Shown here: piece by piece, positions 18,478-41,749 of the stretch
How the letters are laid out: each line of letters starts with the position of its first letter
Numbering within the stretch: position 1 is the stretch's first letter
Origin: Acinetobacter sp. ANC 4204
GTDB lineage: Bacteria > Pseudomonadota > Gammaproteobacteria > Pseudomonadales > Moraxellaceae
DNA length: 64,000 bases
Reading direction: 5' to 3'
Assembly: GCF_002135205.1 (NCBI RefSeq)
Contig: NZ_NEFZ01000007.1
Span: forward strand, 124,001 to 188,000
The notes under the pieces: model-generated
The model's input: the letters and a program-made list of their open reading frames with translations, nothing else
Told to the model about the DNA's origin: nothing
The model's database searches: none
Position numbers and translations under genes: made by a program

Positions 18478-18990
18478 TTAACGATTGTTTTCGTCGTCTT
18501 GAGAGTCTTCAAATTTTGATTCGCCATCAAAACCTGCAGATTGACCACCGAAGCCACCTTGACCACCAAAGCCGCCTTGACCACCGAAGCCACCTTGTTG
18601 ACCGCCGAAGCCGCCTTGACCGCCGAAGCCACCTTGACCGCCGAAGCCACCTTGACCACCGAAGCCACCTTGACCACCGAAGCCACCTTGTTGACCACCA
18701 AAGCCACCTTGTTGACCACCAAAGCCGCCTTGTTGACCACCAAAGCCGCCTTGTTGACCAGCACCAGCAGGCGCACCAGCAGGACGTGGATTACGTGCAG
18801 GAACAACAGTAGAAATTGCATGTTTGTAAACCATTTGGCTTACCGTATTTTTTAATAAAACAACATATTGGTCGAAAGATTCAATATGACCTTGTAATTT
18901 AATACCATTCACAAGGAAGATAGATACAGGAATACGTTCTTTACGGAGAGAATTTAAGAACGGATCTTGCAAAGTTTGACCTTTAGACAT
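18478..18990 (-). CDS. hfq: RNA chaperone Hfq with long glycine-rich tail
   Basis: A 170-residue Hfq. Residues 1 to about 65 are the Sm core ([20 protein letters not shown], then [20 protein letters not shown] and [11 protein letters not shown]), which forms the hexamer that pairs sRNAs with mRNAs. The remaining roughly 100 residues are a low-complexity tail with 11 GGFGGQ-type units followed by an acidic end (EDSQDDENN). Most gamma-proteobacterial Hfq proteins are about 80-105 residues; the long Gly tail is characteristic of Moraxellaceae. It is downstream of miaA as usual, with a 93-bp gap. Confidence 0.97.
18541..18770 (-). repeat. Coding minisatellite in hfq (GGFGGQ units)
   Basis: Near-identical 18- and 21-bp DNA units encode GGFGGQ and QGGFGGQ; I count 11 units in the protein. 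Unit length alternates because some copies carry an additional Gln codon. The repeat is prone to slippage in multiples of three, so copy number may vary between strains without breaking the frame. Confidence 0.85.
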
Positions 18991-32492: not shown

Positions 32493-33704
32493 ATGGCTTT
32501 TAAAAATATTGCAGATCAAACGAACGGTTTTTATATCCCTTGTGTTTCACTGTTTGGCCCAGGCTGTGCCAAAGAAATTGGTGGTAAAGCACAAAACCTC
32601 GGTGCGAAGAAAGCACTGATCGTAACCGATGCTGGCTTATTCAAATTTGGCGTAGCAGACACCATCGCAGGATATCTCAAAGATGCTGGTGTTGATAGTC
32701 ATATCTTCCCAGGTGCGGAACCAAACCCAACTGACATTAACGTACATAACGGTGTAACTGCTTATAATGAGCAAGGTTGTGACTTTATCGTGTCTTTAGG
32801 CGGTGGTTCGTCTCATGACTGCGCAAAAGGTATTGGGCTTGTCACTGCTGGTGGTGGTCATATTCGTGACTACGAAGGGATTGATAAAAGCACCGTTCCA
32901 ATGACTCCTCTGATTGCAATCAACACAACAGCAGGTACAGCTTCAGAAATGACGCGTTTCTGTATTATTACCAATACAGATACTCATGTAAAAATGGCGA
33001 TTGTAGACTGGCGCTGTACTCCTCTTATTGCAATTGATGATCCTAAACTGATGATTGCAAAACCTGCAAGCTTAACAGCAGCAACAGGTATGGATGCATT
33101 AACACATGCGGTAGAGGCTTATGTATCAACAGCTGCTAACCCAATTACCGATGCTTGTGCCGAGAAAGCCATTTCGATGATCAGTGAGTGGTTAAGCCCA
33201 GCCGTTGCAAACGGTGAGAACCTTGAAGCACGTGATGCCATGAGTTATGCACAATACTTAGCAGGTATGGCATTTAACAATGCATCTCTAGGTTATGTTC
33301 ATGCAATGGCACACCAACTTGGTGGTTTCTATAACCTACCACACGGTGTATGTAACGCAGTTTTACTGCCACATGTATGTGAGTTCAACTTAATTGCCTG
33401 CCCTGATCGTTATGCACGTATTGCAGAACTGATGGGAGTCAACACCGCAGGTTTAACTGTGACAGAAGCTGGCTATGCTGCCATTGATGCGATTCGTGAA
33501 TTATCTGCATCTATTGGTATTCCATCAAGCTTGTCTGAACTGGGTGTAAAAGAACAAGATTTGGGCATTATGTCTGAAAACGCGCAAAAAGATGCCTGCA
33601 TGCTGACTAACCCTCGTAAAGCAACCCATGCTCAAGTGGTTGACATCTTTAAAGCGGCGCTCAAATCAAGTGCTTCAGTAGTAGATTTTAAAGCGGCTGT
33701 CTAA
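32493..33704 (+). CDS. Iron-containing (group III) alcohol dehydrogenase
   Basis: A 403-residue NAD-dependent Fe-ADH, likely ethanol/acetaldehyde-active. Seen: the nucleotide-binding SLGGGSSHDCAKGIGLV, NTTAGTASEMTRFCII, and metal ligands in GMDALTHAVEAYVS and HAMAHQLGGFYNLPHGVCNA (three His). The length matches YiaY/AdhB-type enzymes. It is monocistronic, preceded by direct repeats and followed by a branched terminator-like hairpin. Nearby aldehyde dehydrogenase and ethanolamine genes suggest a role in C2 metabolism; direction and substrate are inferred. Confidence 0.92.
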   Translation: MAFKNIADQTNGFYIPCVSLFGPGCAKEIGGKAQNLGAKKALIVTDAGLFKFGVADTIAGYLKDAGVDSHIFPGAEPNPTDINVHNGVTAYNEQGCDFIVSLGGGSSHDCAKGIGLVTAGGGHIRDYEGIDKSTVPMTPLIAINTTAGTASEMTRFCIITNTDTHVKMAIVDWRCTPLIAIDDPKLMIAKPASLTAATGMDALTHAVEAYVSTAANPITDACAEKAISMISEWLSPAVANGENLEARDAMSYAQYLAGMAFNNASLGYVHAMAHQLGGFYNLPHGVCNAVLLPHVCEFNLIACPDRYARIAELMGVNTAGLTVTEAGYAAIDAIRELSASIGIPSSLSELGVKEQDLGIMSENAQKDACMLTNPRKATHAQVVDIFKAALKSSASVVDFKAAV

Positions 33705-33732
33705 GTTCTCTCCTTAACACTTTGTTTGCTTT

Positions 33733-33827
33733 GACAATTTAAGTGGAATGAAACAGACGTCCATACTGTTTCATTCGGGTAAGCCTAATCCTTGCTTACC
33801 TTTGCACTTAAATTGTCTTTTTTTATT
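33733..33827 (+). terminator. Three-helix-junction hairpin followed by a T-tract
   Basis: A closing stem of 13 perfect bp (GACAATTTAAGTG 33733-33745 with CACTTAAATTGTC 33805-33817) encloses two side stems: GAATGAAACAG 33746-33756 with CTGTTTCATTC 33766-33776 (11 bp), and GGTAAGC 33778-33784 with GCTTACC 33794-33800 (7 bp). A run of seven T follows. It likely terminates the alcohol dehydrogenase transcript, but its branched form is not typical of a terminator. Confidence 0.65.
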
Positions 33828-33896
33828 TGTGGTTGACAAAAATTCTGACTTCATCAAGGATAAGGGAACTCATGACAATAACAACCAGAGTGAACT

Positions 33897-34868
33897 ATGT
33901 CAGCACTACAAAACCCGCTTGCGTATCAACCAGATGTCCTTGGTGAAGACTACGAACAACTCAAACTCAGTTTTGCTAATGACTACGAAGGTGAAGTTTG
34001 CGCAACTCTCATTCGTAAAAAAGCCACGCAAACCACAACCAAAGCAGTGCTGTATATTCATGGATTTATTGACTACTTCTTCCAAACAGAAATGGCTGAA
34101 CAGTTCAATCAGCATGGTTACGACTTTTACGCACTTGATTTAAGAAAATATGGTCGCTCCCGTTTAAGCCACCAAAACTACTACAATGTCCGTGATCTGC
34201 GCGAATATGACGATGAAATTACTCAAGCTCTTGAGATTATTGGTGCTGAAGGTCATCTTTCTGTTGTACTGGCAGGACACTCGACTGGCGGTTTGATTAC
34301 CACACTATATGCAGCGCACCATCCACAACACCCTCTAATCAAAGCGCTATGGGCCAACAGTCCTTTTTATGATTTTAATATGCATCCAATTAAACGCAAA
34401 CTTGGCGTGCCACAACTCAGCCGACTTGCAAAGCATTTCCCAGACTTAAAATTTCCAAGTGAACTGAATAAATGGTATGTACCAAGCCTACATCAGAGTG
34501 AACACGGCGAGTGGAACTTTGATTTGCAGTGGAAACAACCAAGTTATTCTATGGTTCGCATCAGTTTTGTCCGTGCCATCCATGAAGCGCAAAAAGAAAT
34601 TCATTGTGGCGGTTTAAAGCTTTCTGTTCCTGCACTGATTATGCATTCACATCAAACACTCAACCCAAAAAAATGGGGCGTAGCTGCACAAACCAGTGAT
34701 GTAATTTTAGATGTCAAAGACATTGAAAAACAGGCGAAAAATCTACAAGGTGACATCTGTGTCGAGACCATTCAAAATGGTTTACACGACTTAGTCTTAT
34801 CTGCACCAGATGTTCGTGCCGAAGTCTATACCAAGTTATTTCAGTGGCTAGAACAAAAGAAGATTTAA
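33897..34868 (+). CDS. Alpha/beta hydrolase (serine hydrolase/lysophospholipase-like)
   Basis: A 323-residue cytoplasmic alpha/beta-hydrolase. The nucleophile elbow is VVLAGHSTGGLIT (GHSTG), the oxyanion region is VLYIHGFIDYFFQ, and a late HD pair occurs in GLHDLVLS (catalytic His). The form resembles the lysophospholipase/monoglyceride lipase branch. No signal peptide is visible. It lies between the alcohol dehydrogenase and the GAF regulator with its own upstream region. The substrate is unknown; a link to C2 metabolism is by position only. Confidence 0.85.
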   Translation: MSALQNPLAYQPDVLGEDYEQLKLSFANDYEGEVCATLIRKKATQTTTKAVLYIHGFIDYFFQTEMAEQFNQHGYDFYALDLRKYGRSRLSHQNYYNVRDLREYDDEITQALEIIGAEGHLSVVLAGHSTGGLITTLYAAHHPQHPLIKALWANSPFYDFNMHPIKRKLGVPQLSRLAKHFPDLKFPSELNKWYVPSLHQSEHGEWNFDLQWKQPSYSMVRISFVRAIHEAQKEIHCGGLKLSVPALIMHSHQTLNPKKWGVAAQTSDVILDVKDIEKQAKNLQGDICVETIQNGLHDLVLSAPDVRAEVYTKLFQWLEQKKI

Positions 34869-34913
34869 TCGCAAAATTTTTATTAACCTATTCCATAACT
34901 CAAATCAAAACTA

Positions 34914-36089
34914 TTAAATTTTGTATTTCTCAAGTAGCTGATGCGCCGGGTGTCCACTCGGTGTCAGCTCAATAAGTCGTTCAACAGCATCAATTGCTTC
35001 TGGGTAGCGTGCTACATGCTTAAAGAGCATATCAGTTTCATTGGCTTTAAAAATCGCGCTACTTAAACGTGACTCCAAACAGTCGCGCCATGCGCAAAGA
35101 AACGGACTTTCTGTTTTAGGCAATAACACACCTGAGCAAAGCTTTAAAGCCGTCTCGATATATGCAGCATCTAATGCCTGCTCTGCTTGTAGGAAATCTG
35201 CTTCTATATGCGCCAAAATTCGGTAAGGACGAGATCCCAACATTCCCCCCAACAAATCCCTTAATTGCGACATTTCTGCTTTAAGTGTGCCTATACTCAC
35301 TTTTCGCTCACCATATAAAGCCTGATGTAAGGTATCTAAAGTCATACCTTGTGGACATAGCGCTAAAATAGTCAGAATTTCAATTTGACGTGGTGTGAGC
35401 ACCATCACTTTGCCATTAAAAAGCACTTGTGGCACACCAAAAGCACGAATATACAGTTGTTGACGCTGGTATTCCAATAATGCTGTTTGAATGATAGATG
35501 CACAGCGCTCTGCTGCCAGTAAACCAAGGCTATTATGATTTTTCCATGTGGTCGATAAATCAATTACCCCCAAAACATGTTTTGAATAGGGGTCGATGAT
35601 TGGTGCTGCATAGCAAACCCAATCATGGATGGAACTCATATAATGTTCATTAGAAAACACACAACTCGATTGTTGGGTTTTAAGTGACAATGCCAATGCA
35701 TTAGTCCCCACCAACTCCTCTCTCCACTGCCCGCCTTCTACAAAATGTACACTTTCCGCAGCATTACGCATTTGCTTACTTGAAGCACTCCAAATAATCG
35801 TACTACCAATATCACCCACAGCAACGACCATTGAGGACTGCTGTGCAATATGCTTGAGCTCATCCGCGCAGTAACTTAAAGCATGTTGTAATGCTGAACC
35901 TTGTGACATCGAACCTTCAGAAATGGGCGCTGCAAAACGATCCTTAGGAATCTCTGCCGAATTAGAACGCTGCCACGAACTTGCAATGCTTTTTCCGAGC
36001 TGTTCAGCTTGTACCGTCGAAATACTGCTGCTGGTTCTAAGCTTTTCTATTTCTTGTCTTTTCTGTATTAAATGTTGCATTGCCATCAT
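34914..36089 (-). CDS. GAF-domain transcriptional regulator (AcoR-like sensor, no AAA+ domain)
   Basis: A 391-residue regulator. The N-terminus SIASSWQRSNSAEIPKDRF and the GAF domain (about residues 90-200, with EELVGTNALALSL and DWVCYAAPIIDP) are typical of AcoR-like alcohol/aldehyde-responsive sensors. Instead of a sigma-54 AAA+ domain it carries a winged-helix-like region (LTPRQIEILTILALCPQGMT to LKAEMSQLRDLLGG), then a helical tail. It is divergent from the aldehyde dehydrogenase gene across 198 bp, as regulators of ExaC/AldB-type dehydrogenases often are. It probably activates that gene. Confidence 0.82.
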   Translation of the reverse strand: MMAMQHLIQKRQEIEKLRTSSSISTVQAEQLGKSIASSWQRSNSAEIPKDRFAAPISEGSMSQGSALQHALSYCADELKHIAQQSSMVVAVGDIGSTIIWSASSKQMRNAAESVHFVEGGQWREELVGTNALALSLKTQQSSCVFSNEHYMSSIHDWVCYAAPIIDPYSKHVLGVIDLSTTWKNHNSLGLLAAERCASIIQTALLEYQRQQLYIRAFGVPQVLFNGKVMVLTPRQIEILTILALCPQGMTLDTLHQALYGERKVSIGTLKAEMSQLRDLLGGMLGSRPYRILAHIEADFLQAEQALDAAYIETALKLCSGVLLPKTESPFLCAWRDCLESRLSSAIFKANETDMLFKHVARYPEAIDAVERLIELTPSGHPAHQLLEKYKI

Positions 36090-36137
36090 TCCTTATTCTC
36101 AAAACAATTCCTGATACACATCCACTGTATTGCATGG

Positions 36138-36166
36138 TTGTAAACATTTGTCGGAAGCTTGTAAAC
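36138..36166. promoter_or_regulatory. TTGTAAAC direct repeats in the divergent regulator/ALDH gap
   Basis: TTGTAAAC is at 36138-36145 and 36159-36166, exactly 21 bp apart (two helical turns), in the middle of the 198-bp divergent intergenic region. It is a candidate operator for the adjacent GAF regulator; this is inferred from position and spacing. Confidence 0.4.
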
Positions 36167-36177
36167 CTGCATCCTTC

Positions 36178-36195
36178 CAACCTTTTTCCAACCTT
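36178..36195. promoter_or_regulatory. Two CAACCTT words upstream of the ALDH gene
   Basis: CAACCTT at 36178-36184 and 36189-36195 (11 bp apart) matches, in rotated form, the 7-bp unit repeated 15 times upstream of the ethanolamine permease gene. It could be a shared regulatory word, or a chance match of two short sequences. Confidence 0.25.
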
Positions 36196-36287
36196 ATATT
36201 AGGTATGCTACTTAAATATTGTACTGATGTACCTTATACCAAAGCTGTAGATGCTTTTAAAAAATCAATAAGCAAAGGAACTTCAAT

Positions 36288-37799
36288 ATGCGCTACGTAG
36301 ACCCTAACCAACCTGGTTCAAAAGTAGAATTTAAAGCACAGTATGAAAACTTTATTGGTGGCGAGTGGGTTGCTCCAATAAAAGGTGAATACTTTGAAAA
36401 TATCTCTCCTGTCGACGGTAAAGCCTTTACTAAAATCCCACGTTCATCTGCTGAAGATATTGAGCTTGCTCTCGATGCTGCACACAAAGCTAAAGCACAA
36501 TGGAATAAATCTTCTCCAACTACACGTTCTAATTTACTCCTTAAAATTGCTGATCGTCTAGAGGAAAATCTAGAGAAATTGGCTGTAGCTGAAACTTGGG
36601 ATAACGGTAAACCAGTACGTGAAACCTTAGCTGCAGATATTCCACTTGCAATTGATCATTTCCGATATTTTGCAAGTTGTATTCGTGCACAAGAAGGTGG
36701 TATTTCTGAAATTGATGAAGACACTATTGCCTATCACTTCCACGAGCCATTAGGTGTTGTGGGACAAATTATTCCATGGAACTTCCCAATTTTAATGGCA
36801 ACATGGAAAATTGCTCCAGCCCTTGCAGCAGGTAACTGTATTGTTCTTAAACCAGCTGAGCAAACGCCTGTAAGTATTTTAGTCTTGGTTGAACTGATTC
36901 AAGACTTACTCCCACCAGGTATTTTAAACATTGTAAATGGTTATGGAGTTGAAGTAGGCCGTCCACTTGCAACTAACCCACGTATTGCAAAAATTGCATT
37001 CACAGGCTCAACCGCTGTTGGGCAAATGATTATGCAGTATGCAACTGAAAATATTATTCCAGTAACTTTAGAGCTTGGTGGTAAATCTCCTAACATCTTC
37101 TTTGAAGATATTATGGATCAAGACGATGATTATCTTGACAAAGCGCTTGAAGGCTTTGCTATGTTTGCGTTGAACCAAGGTGAGATTTGTACTTGCCCTT
37201 CACGTGCATTAGTTCAAGAAAGCATAGCCGATAAATTCTTGGAAAAAGCAATTGAACGTGTCAAACGCATCAAAACAGGTCACCCACTAGACACTGAAAC
37301 GATGATTGGTGCACAAGCTTCTTTAGAACAACAAGAGAAAATTTTAGGCTGTATCGCAACAGGACGTAATGAAGGTGCTCAATTACTGACGGGTGGTAGT
37401 GAACGTAATGAAGTGGGTACAGGTTTCTATATCGAACCAACCATTTTCAAAGGCACAAACGACATGAAAATTTTCCAAGAGGAAATTTTTGGACCAGTGC
37501 TTTCGGTTACAACGTTCAAAGACTTTGATGATGCGATTAAAATTGCAAATGACACCATTTACGGTCTAGGTGCAGGAGTATGGTCACGTTCTGCTCATAC
37601 GTCTTATCGCGCGGGTCGTGCAATTGAAGCGGGTCGTGTTTGGACCAACTGTTATCATATCTACCCTGCGCATGCGGCATTTGGTGGTTACAAAAAATCT
37701 GGCATTGGTCGTGAAAACCACAAAATGATGCTTGATCATTACCAACAAACTAAAAACTTGCTTGTAAGCTATGCCACTAAGCCAATGGGCTTCTTCTAA
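36288..37799 (+). CDS. Aldehyde dehydrogenase (AldB/ExaC-like)
   Basis: A 503-residue NAD(P)-dependent aldehyde dehydrogenase. Seen: [20 protein letters not shown] (cofactor region), [18 protein letters not shown] (catalytic Glu region) and [15 protein letters not shown] (catalytic Cys). The C-terminal [20 protein letters not shown] is the family end signature. This subfamily oxidises acetaldehyde and similar aldehydes. It stands between the GAF regulator and the ethanolamine genes, so it would use the acetaldehyde made by EutBC. It is followed by a terminator-like hairpin. Confidence 0.93.
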
Positions 37800-37822
37800 G
37801 CATAAATATATTTGTGCATGAT

Positions 37823-37852
37823 GTGTTTAGGGTGATTCGTTACCCTAAACAC
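37823..37852 (+). terminator. Hairpin after the aldehyde dehydrogenase gene
   Basis: GTGTTTAGGGT (37823-37833) and ACCCTAAACAC (37842-37852) form a perfect 11-bp stem with an 8-nt loop. No T-tract follows; the 7-bp repeat array begins at its last base. It could be a Rho-independent-like terminator or an RNA-stabilising hairpin. Confidence 0.55.
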
Positions 37853-37956
37853 CTTCAACCTTCAACCTTCAACCTTCAACCTTCAACCTTCAACCTTCAA
37901 CCTTCAACCTTCAACCTTCAACCTTCAACCTTCAACCTTCAACCTTCAACCTTCAA
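37852..37956 (+). repeat. Heptanucleotide tandem array, 15 perfect copies of CCTTCAA
   Basis: 105 bp = 15 x 7 with no interruption or mismatch. It lies between the ALDH hairpin and the sigma-54-type promoter of the ethanolamine permease gene, about 55 bp upstream of the -24 element. A perfect array of this length is expected to slip during replication, changing promoter spacing by 7-bp steps. There is no coding function in a + strand frame connected to a start. Confidence 0.97.
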
Positions 37957-38010
37957 AAATAATAATTTATCTCTGCGTTACACACAAAATTAGACAGGAT
38001 GTCTGATTGC

Positions 38011-38028
38011 TTGGTACTGAAATTGCTT
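38011..38028 (+). promoter_or_regulatory. Sigma-54 (-24/-12) promoter upstream of the ethanolamine permease gene
   Basis: TTGGTACTGAAATTGCTT fits the consensus TGGCAC-N5-TTGC, with one mismatch in the -24 block (T for C). The invariant GG (38013-38014) and GC (38025-38026) are exactly 12 bp apart. It lies 53 bp before the likely start at 38081. Nitrogen-regulated (NtrC) ethanolamine use would explain sigma-54 control; no NtrC site was clearly seen. Confidence 0.65.
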
Positions 38029-38080
38029 AAACATTGTATGAACCAAGCCATCTATAAAAACTTAAGATATGGAGCTTCCT

Positions 38081-39523
38081 ATGACAGACTCTCCGCTTAA
38101 AGATTCAATATCTTTATCAACACAAACAGTGCAAACTTCTGACGATTATTTTGAAAAAAGACAACTTAAACAAGGTGCTGTCGGCTGGCTACTTTTAGTC
38201 GGTTTAGGCGTGGCTTATGTCATTTCTGGTGACTTTGCAGGCTGGAACTTCGGTTTAGCTCAAGGTGGCTGGGGCGGTATGTTCATTGCAACAGTCGTAG
38301 TTGCCATTATGTATCTATGTATGTGCCTTGCCATGTCTGAAATGGCGACCATGCTTCCCACAGCTGGTGGAGGTTATAGTTTCGCCCGCACAGCTTTCGG
38401 CCCCTTAGGCGGTTATCTCACAGGTACTGCAATTTTAATCGAGTACGCCATCGCACCTGCTGCTATTGCCTGCTTTATTGGTGCTTACTGTGAATCATTA
38501 TTTGGTATCGGTGGATGGATCATCTATTTGATCTGCTATCTGATTTTTATGGGCATTCATCTCAAAGGTGCGGGTGAGGCACTGAAAATCATCTTTGTGA
38601 TTACCGCAGTTGCTGCTGTGGCCTTATTTGTATTTTTCGTCGCAATGGCACCCCATTTCAACAGTGCCAATCTGTTTAATATTGCTCAAACTGAAAATAT
38701 TGGGGCAAGCAATTTCTTACCTATGGGCTATATTGGGATATGGGCTGCCGTGCCTTATGCAATTTGGTTCTTCTTAGCCGTTGAGGGTGTACCACTTGCA
38801 GCAGAAGAAGCTAAAGATCCATCTAAATCACTCCCGCGTGGTTTAATCGGTTCCATGCTTATCCTTGCTGCATTTGCCATGCTCATTTTGTTTCTTGGTG
38901 TTGGAGCAGCTGGTGCAGATCAATTAAAAGAATCAGGTGCCCCATTGGTCGATGCACTTGTTGCAGTCTATGGACCAAATACGTGGCTTGCTAGTTTTGT
39001 CAATTTTGTGGGTTTGGCTGGCTTAATTGCAAGTTTCTTCTCTATTATCTACGCCTATTCACGCCAAATTTTTGCATTATCTCGTGCAGGTTATTTACCG
39101 ACATCCCTGTCACTCACAAATAAAAATAAAGCACCTTATTTAGCCATTATCATCCCTGGCATCATTGGCTTTTTACTGTCGCTAACTGGTGAAGGTGATC
39201 TACTTATTTTAATGGCCGTGTTTGGTGCGACTATTTCCTATGTTTTAATGATGCTGTCCCACATCAAACTCCGCATCAGTCGCCCTGAACTACCACGCCC
39301 ATACAAAACACCAGGTGGCATTGCGACTTCATCTATTGCCTTAATTTTAGCCAGTATCGCAGTAATTGCAGGCTTTGTGGTCGACCCTAAAGTTTGGTTT
39401 ATGGCGGCTGGTATCTATGTGGTATTTATTGCTTACTTCATCTTTTATAGTCGGCATAAACTGGTGCAAGGAACACCTGAAGAAGAGTTTGAAAATATTC
39501 GCAAGGCTGAGCAAGAATTATAA
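38081..39523 (+). CDS. eat: Ethanolamine permease, APC family
   Basis: About 480 residues with 12 predicted TM segments. The N-terminal VGWLLLVGLGVAYVISGDFA and the later GGGYSFARTAFGPLGGYL are typical of ethanolamine (EutP/Eat) permeases of the APC superfamily. ATG at 38081 is preferred because GGAG precedes it by 6 nt; an in-frame ATG at 38069 gives four extra residues. It directly precedes eutB (14-bp gap) and eutC, so the substrate assignment is well supported. It is the first gene of the operon and carries the sigma-54 promoter. Confidence 0.92.
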   Translation: MTDSPLKDSISLSTQTVQTSDDYFEKRQLKQGAVGWLLLVGLGVAYVISGDFAGWNFGLAQGGWGGMFIATVVVAIMYLCMCLAMSEMATMLPTAGGGYSFARTAFGPLGGYLTGTAILIEYAIAPAAIACFIGAYCESLFGIGGWIIYLICYLIFMGIHLKGAGEALKIIFVITAVAAVALFVFFVAMAPHFNSANLFNIAQTENIGASNFLPMGYIGIWAAVPYAIWFFLAVEGVPLAAEEAKDPSKSLPRGLIGSMLILAAFAMLILFLGVGAAGADQLKESGAPLVDALVAVYGPNTWLASFVNFVGLAGLIASFFSIIYAYSRQIFALSRAGYLPTSLSLTNKNKAPYLAIIIPGIIGFLLSLTGEGDLLILMAVFGATISYVLMMLSHIKLRISRPELPRPYKTPGGIATSSIALILASIAVIAGFVVDPKVWFMAAGIYVVFIAYFIFYSRHKLVQGTPEEEFENIRKAEQEL

Positions 39524-39537
39524 GAGGACCTTTCAAA

Positions 39538-40923
39538 ATGGCTTATAAAACTTTGATTGGACATCAACATTATGTTTTTAATGACTTAAAAACGCTTATG
39601 GCAAAGGCAACACCATTGCGATCGGGAGATCAATTGGCAGGTGTTGCAGCTGAACATGCAACGGAACGTGTTGCTGCACAAATGGCTTTGGCAGAGGTTC
39701 CACTCAAACAATTTTTAACTGAAGCATTAATTGACTATGAACAAGATGAAATCACACGCTTAATCATTGATGAGCACCGTAGTGATTTATTTGCCCCTAT
39801 TTCACATTTCACTGTAGGTGACTTTCGCAACTGGTTGCTCAGTGCAGATGCAAGCACAGAAAAGTTACAGCAACTTGCCTTAGGTTTAACACCTGAAATG
39901 GTAGCCGCTGTCAGTAAAATTATGCGTAATCAAGACTTGATTTTGGTGGCCAGCAAATGTGAAGTCATCACCCAATTTCGCAACACCATCGGTTTAAAAG
40001 GGCATCTTTCCACTCGTTTGCAACCCAATCACCCTACAGATGATCTCTTGGGGATATCGGCCAGTATTTTGGACGGACTGATGTATGGCAATGGTGATGC
40101 AGTCATAGGGATTAACCCCGCAACGGATAACCTCCAAAATTTATCAGAGCTCTTAAAACTCCTCGATCATATTATTCAAGAGCATCAAATTCCAACCCAA
40201 TCCTGTGTGCTAACCCATATCAGTTCAGGCATTCAACTGGCTGAAAAAAATGTGCCGATTGACCTGATGTTTCAATCTATTGCAGGAACTCAACTTGCCA
40301 ACGACGGCTTCGGGATTAATCTTGAGTTACTCCGTGAAGGTTATGAAGCGACACTCGCTTTGAAACGCGGCACTGTGGGACAAAACGTGATGTACTTTGA
40401 AACGGGTCAAGGCAGTGCTTTATCCAGCAATGCCCATCACGGCGTTGATCAACAAACCATAGAAGTTCGCGCTTATGCAGTCGCACGTAAATTTAACCCT
40501 CTGTTGGTCAATACCGTGGTTGGATTTATTGGTCCAGAATATTTATACAATGGCAAACAAATTATCCGAGCAGGTTTAGAAGATCATTTTTGTGGCAAGC
40601 TTCTCGGCTTACCAATGGGATGTGACATTTGCTATACCAACCATGCCGATGCTGACCAAAATGACATGGATGTATTACTCACCCTCTTTGGTGCAGCAGG
40701 GTTGAACTTTATTATGGGCATTCCAGGTTCAGACGATGTCATGCTGAACTATCAAACCACATCGTTTCATGATGCCTTGTATTTAAGACAGCTTCTGGGT
40801 CTAAAAGCCGCACCTGAATTTGATACGTGGCTCGCCGAACAAGGGATTTTTAAACAACAGCAACAATACATTCAGTGGCCTGAACACATGCCACCTCAGT
40901 TTGAAAAACTTTTACATATATAA
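39538..40923 (+). CDS. eutB: Ethanolamine ammonia-lyase large subunit
   Basis: A 461-residue TIM-barrel subunit that holds the active site for adenosylcobalamin-dependent conversion of ethanolamine to acetaldehyde and ammonia. Seen: MRNQDLILVASKCEVITQFR, GLKGHLSTRLQPNHPTDD, YFETGQGSALSSNAHHGVDQ and LGLPMGCDICYTNHADADQN. The length matches the family (about 453-465). Cytoplasmic; no microcompartment genes are nearby. The gap to eutC is 10 bp. Confidence 0.97.
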   Translation: MAYKTLIGHQHYVFNDLKTLMAKATPLRSGDQLAGVAAEHATERVAAQMALAEVPLKQFLTEALIDYEQDEITRLIIDEHRSDLFAPISHFTVGDFRNWLLSADASTEKLQQLALGLTPEMVAAVSKIMRNQDLILVASKCEVITQFRNTIGLKGHLSTRLQPNHPTDDLLGISASILDGLMYGNGDAVIGINPATDNLQNLSELLKLLDHIIQEHQIPTQSCVLTHISSGIQLAEKNVPIDLMFQSIAGTQLANDGFGINLELLREGYEATLALKRGTVGQNVMYFETGQGSALSSNAHHGVDQQTIEVRAYAVARKFNPLLVNTVVGFIGPEYLYNGKQIIRAGLEDHFCGKLLGLPMGCDICYTNHADADQNDMDVLLTLFGAAGLNFIMGIPGSDDVMLNYQTTSFHDALYLRQLLGLKAAPEFDTWLAEQGIFKQQQQYIQWPEHMPPQFEKLLHI

Positions 40924-40933
40924 GGAGCAACCT

Positions 40934-41749
40934 ATGTCACTTGTTCCTCTCGAAAACTATCAATCCGAACAGCATCAGGATGTTTGGGAAAATCTTAAAA
41001 AATTTACCGATGCACGAATTGCAATCGGACGTGCAGGTTGTAGTATTCCTACGCATGAAATGCTGAAATTCCAACTGGCCCATGCTGAAGCACAGGATGC
41101 AGTACATCAAGCTTTAGATGTCGATCTATTGGTCTCTAGTTTTAAAAACCAAAGTTTGGATAGTTTAACCGTACATAGCCAAGCCGAAGACAAGCAGGAA
41201 TATCTAAAACGTCCAGATCTAGGGCGTTTGCTTAATAGTGAATCCTATCGTGGCTTACAAACATTTAAAGCAAGTAACCCACAAGCTTATGATGTTTGTA
41301 TTGTGATTGGGGATGGTCTTTCTGCACGTGCAATTGAAGAAAATGCCGTACCGTTTATTCAGCACCTCATCCCACATTTGCAAGCTGAGCATTGGTCTAT
41401 TGCTCCTATCGTTATTGCAACAGGCAGCCGAGTTGCTTTGGGTGACCAAGTTGCCGAATGCCTACACGCTACAATGTTGGTCATGCTGATTGGAGAACGC
41501 CCTGGTCTCAGCTCACCAGACAGCATGGGGATTTATTACACATGGAAAGCTAGTACTGGTACCCTAGACGCAAAAAGAAACTGTATTTCTAATGTTCGTC
41601 CTGCGGGTTTAAGTATTCTAATTGCAACACAACGGCTAATGTCACTCATGCGTGGTTCAAAAAAACTTGGCTATTCTGGGGTTGAGCTAAAAGACGAACA
41701 CGAAATGGTGAGTCTGGACACTGCGCATACCCCTAAACGTTTATTTTAA
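40934..41749 (+). CDS. eutC: Ethanolamine ammonia-lyase small subunit
   Basis: 271 residues from ATG 40934 (AAGGAGC upstream). It binds adenosylcobalamin with EutB. Family features are FTDARIAIGRAGCSIPTHEM near the N-terminus, DVCIVIGDGLSARAIEENA and GERPGLSSPDSMGIYYTW. Longer frames upstream lack a ribosome site. It ends the eat-eutB-eutC operon; a long hairpin follows. There is no eutA reactivase gene in the window. Confidence 0.96.
   Translation: MSLVPLENYQSEQHQDVWENLKKFTDARIAIGRAGCSIPTHEMLKFQLAHAEAQDAVHQALDVDLLVSSFKNQSLDSLTVHSQAEDKQEYLKRPDLGRLLNSESYRGLQTFKASNPQAYDVCIVIGDGLSARAIEENAVPFIQHLIPHLQAEHWSIAPIVIATGSRVALGDQVAECLHATMLVMLIGERPGLSSPDSMGIYYTWKASTGTLDAKRNCISNVRPAGLSILIATQRLMSLMRGSKKLGYSGVELKDEHEMVSLDTAHTPKRLF

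Follow-up and report, generated by a model that had tools for sequence, protein, structure and literature searches.

A perfect heptanucleotide array between ald and the ethanolamine genes of two Acinetobacter species, with a putative action through RNA

The window, a stretch of 64,000 nucleotides from Acinetobacter sp. ANC 4204, contains a locus for ethanolamine use in which the order is divergent regulator, ald, hairpin, heptamer array, sigma-54-type element, eat, eutB and eutC. The regulator (391 aa) is encoded on the minus strand at 34914-36089, and the remaining genes lie on the plus strand: ald, an acetaldehyde dehydrogenase of the ExaC type, at 36288-37799; eat, the ethanolamine permease, at 38081-39523; and eutB and eutC, the large and small subunits of ethanolamine ammonia-lyase, at 39538-40923 and 40940-41749. 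As the start of eat we picked the ATG at 38081 for the GGAG 6 nt ahead of it; the mechanical open reading frame begins at 38069.

Within the ald-eat spacer, a hairpin (GTGTTTAGGGT-GATTCGTT-ACCCTAAACAC; 37823-37852, plus strand) abuts an array of 15 perfect CCTTCAA copies at 37852-37956 on the same strand (TRF, 100% matches). The array is contained in a 135-nt G-free stretch of the ald-strand RNA (37840-37974, plus strand), a candidate rut (Rho entry) site. Between array and promoter there is a dyad, AATTAGACAGGATGTCTGATT, at 37988-38008, which is a possible operator and is found at the same place in the closest relative described below. It is followed by the sigma-54-type promoter element TTGGTACTGAAATTGCTT at 38011-38028 on the plus strand, with its GG at 38013-38014 and its GC at 38025-38026; the eat start site predicted from this element is estimated to lie near 38038. 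No Rfam family reaches its gathering score in 34800-39600.

When the preceding A is included, the perfect period-7 tract spans 37851-37956, that is 106 nt or 15.1 copies with 100% matches. A simulation of 200 first-order Markov sequences, each 64 kb long, gave a longest perfect period-7 tract of 20 nt (mean 15.3), and the array is not a product of chance. The preliminary description of this DNA had reported a perfect 15-copy array between the aldehyde dehydrogenase hairpin and a sigma-54-type promoter of eat-eutB-eutC, and both the repeat and the layout are borne out. As a tandem run of perfect short units beyond chance, the array classifies as a VNTR or simple sequence repeat. None of the three forward frames meets a stop codon within the repeats.

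Among perfect tracts of at least 25 nt, this is the sole array of period 5-9 with at least five copies in the window, and contig C12 of this genome, of which 400 kb were scanned, yields no perfect array of period 5-9 and at least 25 nt. Together the two stretches cover 464 kb, about 12% of the 3.9 Mb genome, so genome-wide rarity of such arrays is an extrapolation. For the unit itself the whole genome was searched, and three tandem copies of CCTTCAA occur at no second site. A longer repeat is also seen in the window, an 18-bp array at 18541-18753 with 11.2 copies, and likewise 11.2 copies in the stretch from the closest relative; it is probably a glycine-rich coding repeat.

Of the 80 named EutB loci retained in a comparison, 53 belong to Acinetobacter, the closest one among them. 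EutB matches are found in 80 of 175 Acinetobacter genomes, one of them (G126, which is not among the fetched loci) merely a marginal fragment with an E-value of 5.8e-4. By EutB, the closest relative of the window genome is G115 (96%, the next being at 91%). In the corresponding position it carries 11 perfect CCATCAA copies, and the hairpin and promoter on either side are nearly identical to those of the window. Three tandem CCTTCAA units occur in 1 of the 175 genus genomes, the window's own, and three tandem CCATCAA units also in 1 of 175, which is G115; in the family, CCWTCAA repeated three times is present in 2 of 299 genomes, again the window genome and G115. With each unit in a single genome of the genus, the array as a genus-wide feature is ruled out. 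A reversed control pattern (AACTACC-type heptamers) gave 2 and 3 matches in the genomes G047 and G293, so other heptamer arrays do exist in the family.

We also scanned the 500 bp upstream of eat in 79 loci for perfect tracts of at least 2.5 copies and at least 18 nt; for five of these loci (L130, L146, L164, L167 and L172) eat matched only in part, and its start was extrapolated. Tracts are found in three loci, those of the window, G115 and G142, and 77 of the 79 regions hold no comparable long array. The G142 tract (locus L150) lies in the eat leader, between the sigma-54-type element and the eat start, and consists of 24 nt or 3.4 copies of a unit like ATGAGAA; it is a second, unrelated 7-bp repeat at the eut operon.

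Every copy in the window differs from every copy in G115 by one T/A change. To the right of the arrays, 21 of the 120 aligned flank bases are different (17.5%), and at this rate a static array would be expected to have gathered about 10.6 substitutions in the window and 7.8 in G115, while none are seen. The uniform one-base difference, in spite of the flank divergence, indicates that the copies have been replaced from single units since the split. The pair of species, with 15 CCTTCAA in one and 11 CCATCAA in the other, implies turnover of the array by slippage, in line with the slipping array near the eat-eutBC promoter that had been proposed, and the copy number should have changed during this turnover. 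The genome collections contain one genome per species, and 15 versus 11 copies is thus a comparison between species.

From about 33.5 to 37.80 kb (33501-37803), the window is 98-100% identical to G115 in segments of 500 bp, and ald has 1 difference in 1509 nt. The other aligned segments range from 73% to 99%, mostly 80-95%, with those adjoining 33501-37803 at about 82-89%; more near-identical segments are found at 48.5, 50-51 and 61-62 kb. The region 33501-37803 is likely to be a recent recombination tract between the two species. It breaks off immediately past the ald stop codon, with some 20 bp left to the hairpin. Because the array lies outside the tract, in diverged sequence, its presence in both species is older than the recombination. 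A recent transfer of the array itself between the window species and G115 is ruled out, as the tract ends at the ald stop and the right flank differs to the extent given above. The heptanucleotide VNTR would then have arisen in the ald-eat spacer before the two Acinetobacter species split, and would have turned over since.

Sigma-54 promoters have a consensus in which GG and GC stand ten bases apart (GG-N10-GC). Such an element is found upstream of eat in all 33 ald-eat intergenic regions examined, which are those of the window and of 32 of the 78 other fetched loci; the other 46 loci were left out, one of them (L185) for its spacer of 1.65 kb and the rest for want of a same-strand ald beside eat in the fetched stretch. 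The genome contains rpoN (505.9 bits), a rho gene and sigma-54 activators (five strong PF00158 matches). The divergent regulator at 34914-36089 gives no match to this AAA+ domain (PF00158), and neither does its counterpart in A. nosocomialis (L045:484-1701, minus strand); both resemble DhaR at the N-terminus and match Trans_reg_C only weakly. Two proteins encoded elsewhere with GAF, PAS, AAA+ and HTH_8 domains (L209 and L210) are candidates for the real activator.

The gene order agrees with what PMC9426561 describes for A. baumannii, where ald, permease, eutB and eutC also follow each other beside a divergent regulator. The sigma-54-type motif before eat is a further likeness to a known sigma-54-controlled ethanolamine operon, the EatR/RpoN-controlled one of P. 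aeruginosa, which we cite from the title of a reference in PMC9426561. In contrast to the known ethanolamine operons, there is an array, in two species only, and the divergent regulator has no detected AAA+ domain here or in A. nosocomialis.

The hairpin after ald is likewise present in all 33 intergenic regions, with energies from -13.9 to -29.9 kcal/mol (without shuffle control) and with differing sequences. A hairpin that is kept while its sequence differs among species would be expected of a transcript end more than of a protein site. In the window just 2 U are found among the 8 nt that follow it. The idea that the array replaces a lost U-tract is not upheld: several array-free relatives also have at most 3 U in the 8 nt after the hairpin. 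These counts come from a scan for stems of even length; a scan of all lengths over-extended some stems.

Because the array is located in the untranslated ald tail, ahead of the predicted sigma-54 start, it is present only in transcripts that read on from ald. In such transcripts it would yield, after the ald stop codon and the hairpin, about 100 nt of G-free, C-rich and unstructured RNA, which would be ideal for Rho entry. Among the 78-nt stretches of the window, taken on either strand, the array ranks first by C-over-G excess (C 34, G 0). Its cytosines are spaced at 11-13 nt, as in RhoTermPredict, and over 78 nt it has the composition expected of a candidate Rho-dependent terminator. The folding energy of the array RNA is 0.0 kcal/mol, and the hairpin ahead of it stays intact.

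The G115 array (C 35, G 0) is also the top 78-nt stretch of its 400 kb, in which G-free runs of 78 nt or more occur at two other places. The 400 kb of C12 contain a single such run, and the C-over-G excess there does not go above 27. In the other 31 ald-eat intergenic regions the excess is only 0-13, versus 34 and 35 in the species with the array. Within the window the array is the strongest candidate for Rho entry.

The reading that we favor, with a probability of roughly 0.4, is a VNTR maintained by slippage that acts on the ethanolamine genes via RNA and not via DNA geometry. Rho would stop ald transcription at the array and so shield eat-eutBC from read-through, and more copies would give better shielding. 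Slippage as the cause, the loading of Rho, termination and the dependence on copy number are all steps that we infer. Like the Rho-dependent terminators of PMC6407284, the array provides 78 nt of C-rich, G-poor, unstructured RNA with regularly placed C; unlike them, this putative terminator is built of slipping repeats. Within the literature searched, no paper came up on Rho-dependent termination tied to tandem repeats.

A barrier between ald and eat makes sense in light of data from A. baumannii. There ald is induced 13.2-fold by ethanol (PMC2848557), and in cells without ethanolamine ald1 is high and eutBC RNA extremely low, yet RNA spanning ald1-eutH exists (PMC9426561). Such a barrier is not necessary, as 77 of 79 upstream regions are without a comparable array, and several relatives that have no array lack both a U-tract and a rut-like stretch. 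Moreover, PMC9426561 reports that in A. baumannii a promoter upstream of ald1 drives a single ald1-eutHBC transcript; this weighs against strict insulation, and also against eat having a promoter of its own in that species.

The composition of the RNA should also be read with care. About 7% of random heptamers are equally G-free and C-rich on a given strand, which counts against a role of Rho, and the arrays of the window and G115 count as one event because they share their origin. In addition, the authors of RhoTermPredict report that the C/G ratio does not correlate strongly with termination (PMC6407284). An extension of the Rho reading, in which the slipping heptamer is a length-adjustable Rho entry site, is in our view unlikely: lineages would differ heritably in how much ethanol-induced ald transcription leaks into the ethanolamine operon, and the array would serve as a graded contingency dial.

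The array may instead be a passenger microsatellite, an ordinary VNTR with neutral slippage, in a spacer that tolerates changes in length, and without effect on eat-eutBC. This is a serious possibility, though one that we place below even odds, and we regard it and an effect through RNA as about equally likely. It agrees with the presence of a long array in just 2 of 79 eat upstream regions, with the same promoter motif in the array-free spacers, and with a spacer length that varies among species. A 7-bp VNTR of the same genus, Abaum_0845, has 2-44 copies among hospital isolates of A. baumannii and serves merely as a marker in typing schemes (PMC4352537, PMC3440325); here the two heptamer VNTRs are compared by description only, and in the cited passages no regulatory role is claimed for Abaum_0845. 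Against a passenger stand two observations: both species have a perfect array at this point although their flanks differ by 17.5%, and the RNA of the ald strand has an extreme composition. Selection is not required to explain either of these.

The preliminary description had seen the array as a switch of helical phase, where gain or loss of a copy would rotate whatever activator site lies upstream against the sigma-54 promoter. Spelled out, such a switch would move the site by two thirds of a turn per copy, and expression would cycle every three copies. The arithmetic is right, as a 7-bp unit falls short of a full turn and it takes three copies to complete two turns. The sigma-54-type motif is real and conserved, and activator sites of sigma-54 promoters usually lie where the array lies. 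Further, the distance from the hairpin to the GG, measured between like bases, is 161 bp in the window and 138 bp in G115, a difference of 23 bp or 2.19 turns, which leaves the hairpins of these two species (n=2) merely 0.19 turn out of phase; by chance alone the phases would agree this well with a probability of about 0.4, and the comparison of two species speaks neither for nor against rotation.

The activator site on which the switch depends was not found. Between the ald stop and the array none is recognised, and the hairpin, the sole feature conserved there between the window and G115, does not keep its sequence in other species. The shared dyad at 37988-38008 (P 0.020 in the window and 0.045 in G115, uncorrected, with 33 loci tested) has arms of 7 without mismatch in G115, and as a shared element it is suggested as a modest lead only. 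It lies between array and promoter, and copy number can therefore not move it relative to the promoter. All in all, we consider a rotation switch very improbable. Finally, it is also very improbable that the heptamers form a row of sites for a DNA- or RNA-binding regulator with copy number setting the dose: the units are uniform within each species and stand beside the promoter, but a one-base difference separates every CCTTCAA copy from every CCATCAA copy, neither unit is palindromic, and none of the remaining 173 genus genomes has an array of either.

Repeats in promoter regions are already known, and the array adds a member to them, with a mode of action that is putative. The best comparison is with the hmw1A and hmw2A promoters of Haemophilus influenzae, where 7-bp repeats are found in 9-28 copies in isolates (PMC2424069). 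The copy number varies within the species and more repeats generally correspond to less mRNA (PMC2424069, PMC2651432), by a mechanism that PMC2651432 states as undetermined. The likeness extends to perfect heptamers, a similar number of copies and a position about 100 bp upstream of the gene. The unit, on the other hand, is unrelated; the hmw genes encode adhesins while here it is a catabolic operon, and for hmw the variation within the species and the effect on mRNA are known, where we have the sequence of the array. Among literature titles on phase variation by simple repeats in Acinetobacter and on repeats with ethanolamine genes, none is on such an array, judged by title.

A change of expression at the eut operon can be selected: in A. 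baumannii a spontaneous ISAba1 insertion raised eutBC expression and led to rapid growth on ethanolamine as carbon source (PMC9426561). The orthologous arrays of the two species have different units and different lengths, which makes the effects of length, helical phase and sequence separable and allows a clean test. The repeat-tuned promoters described in PMC2424069 and PMC2651432 serve a surface adhesin, and a nutrient operon tuned in this way would bring the principle into metabolism.
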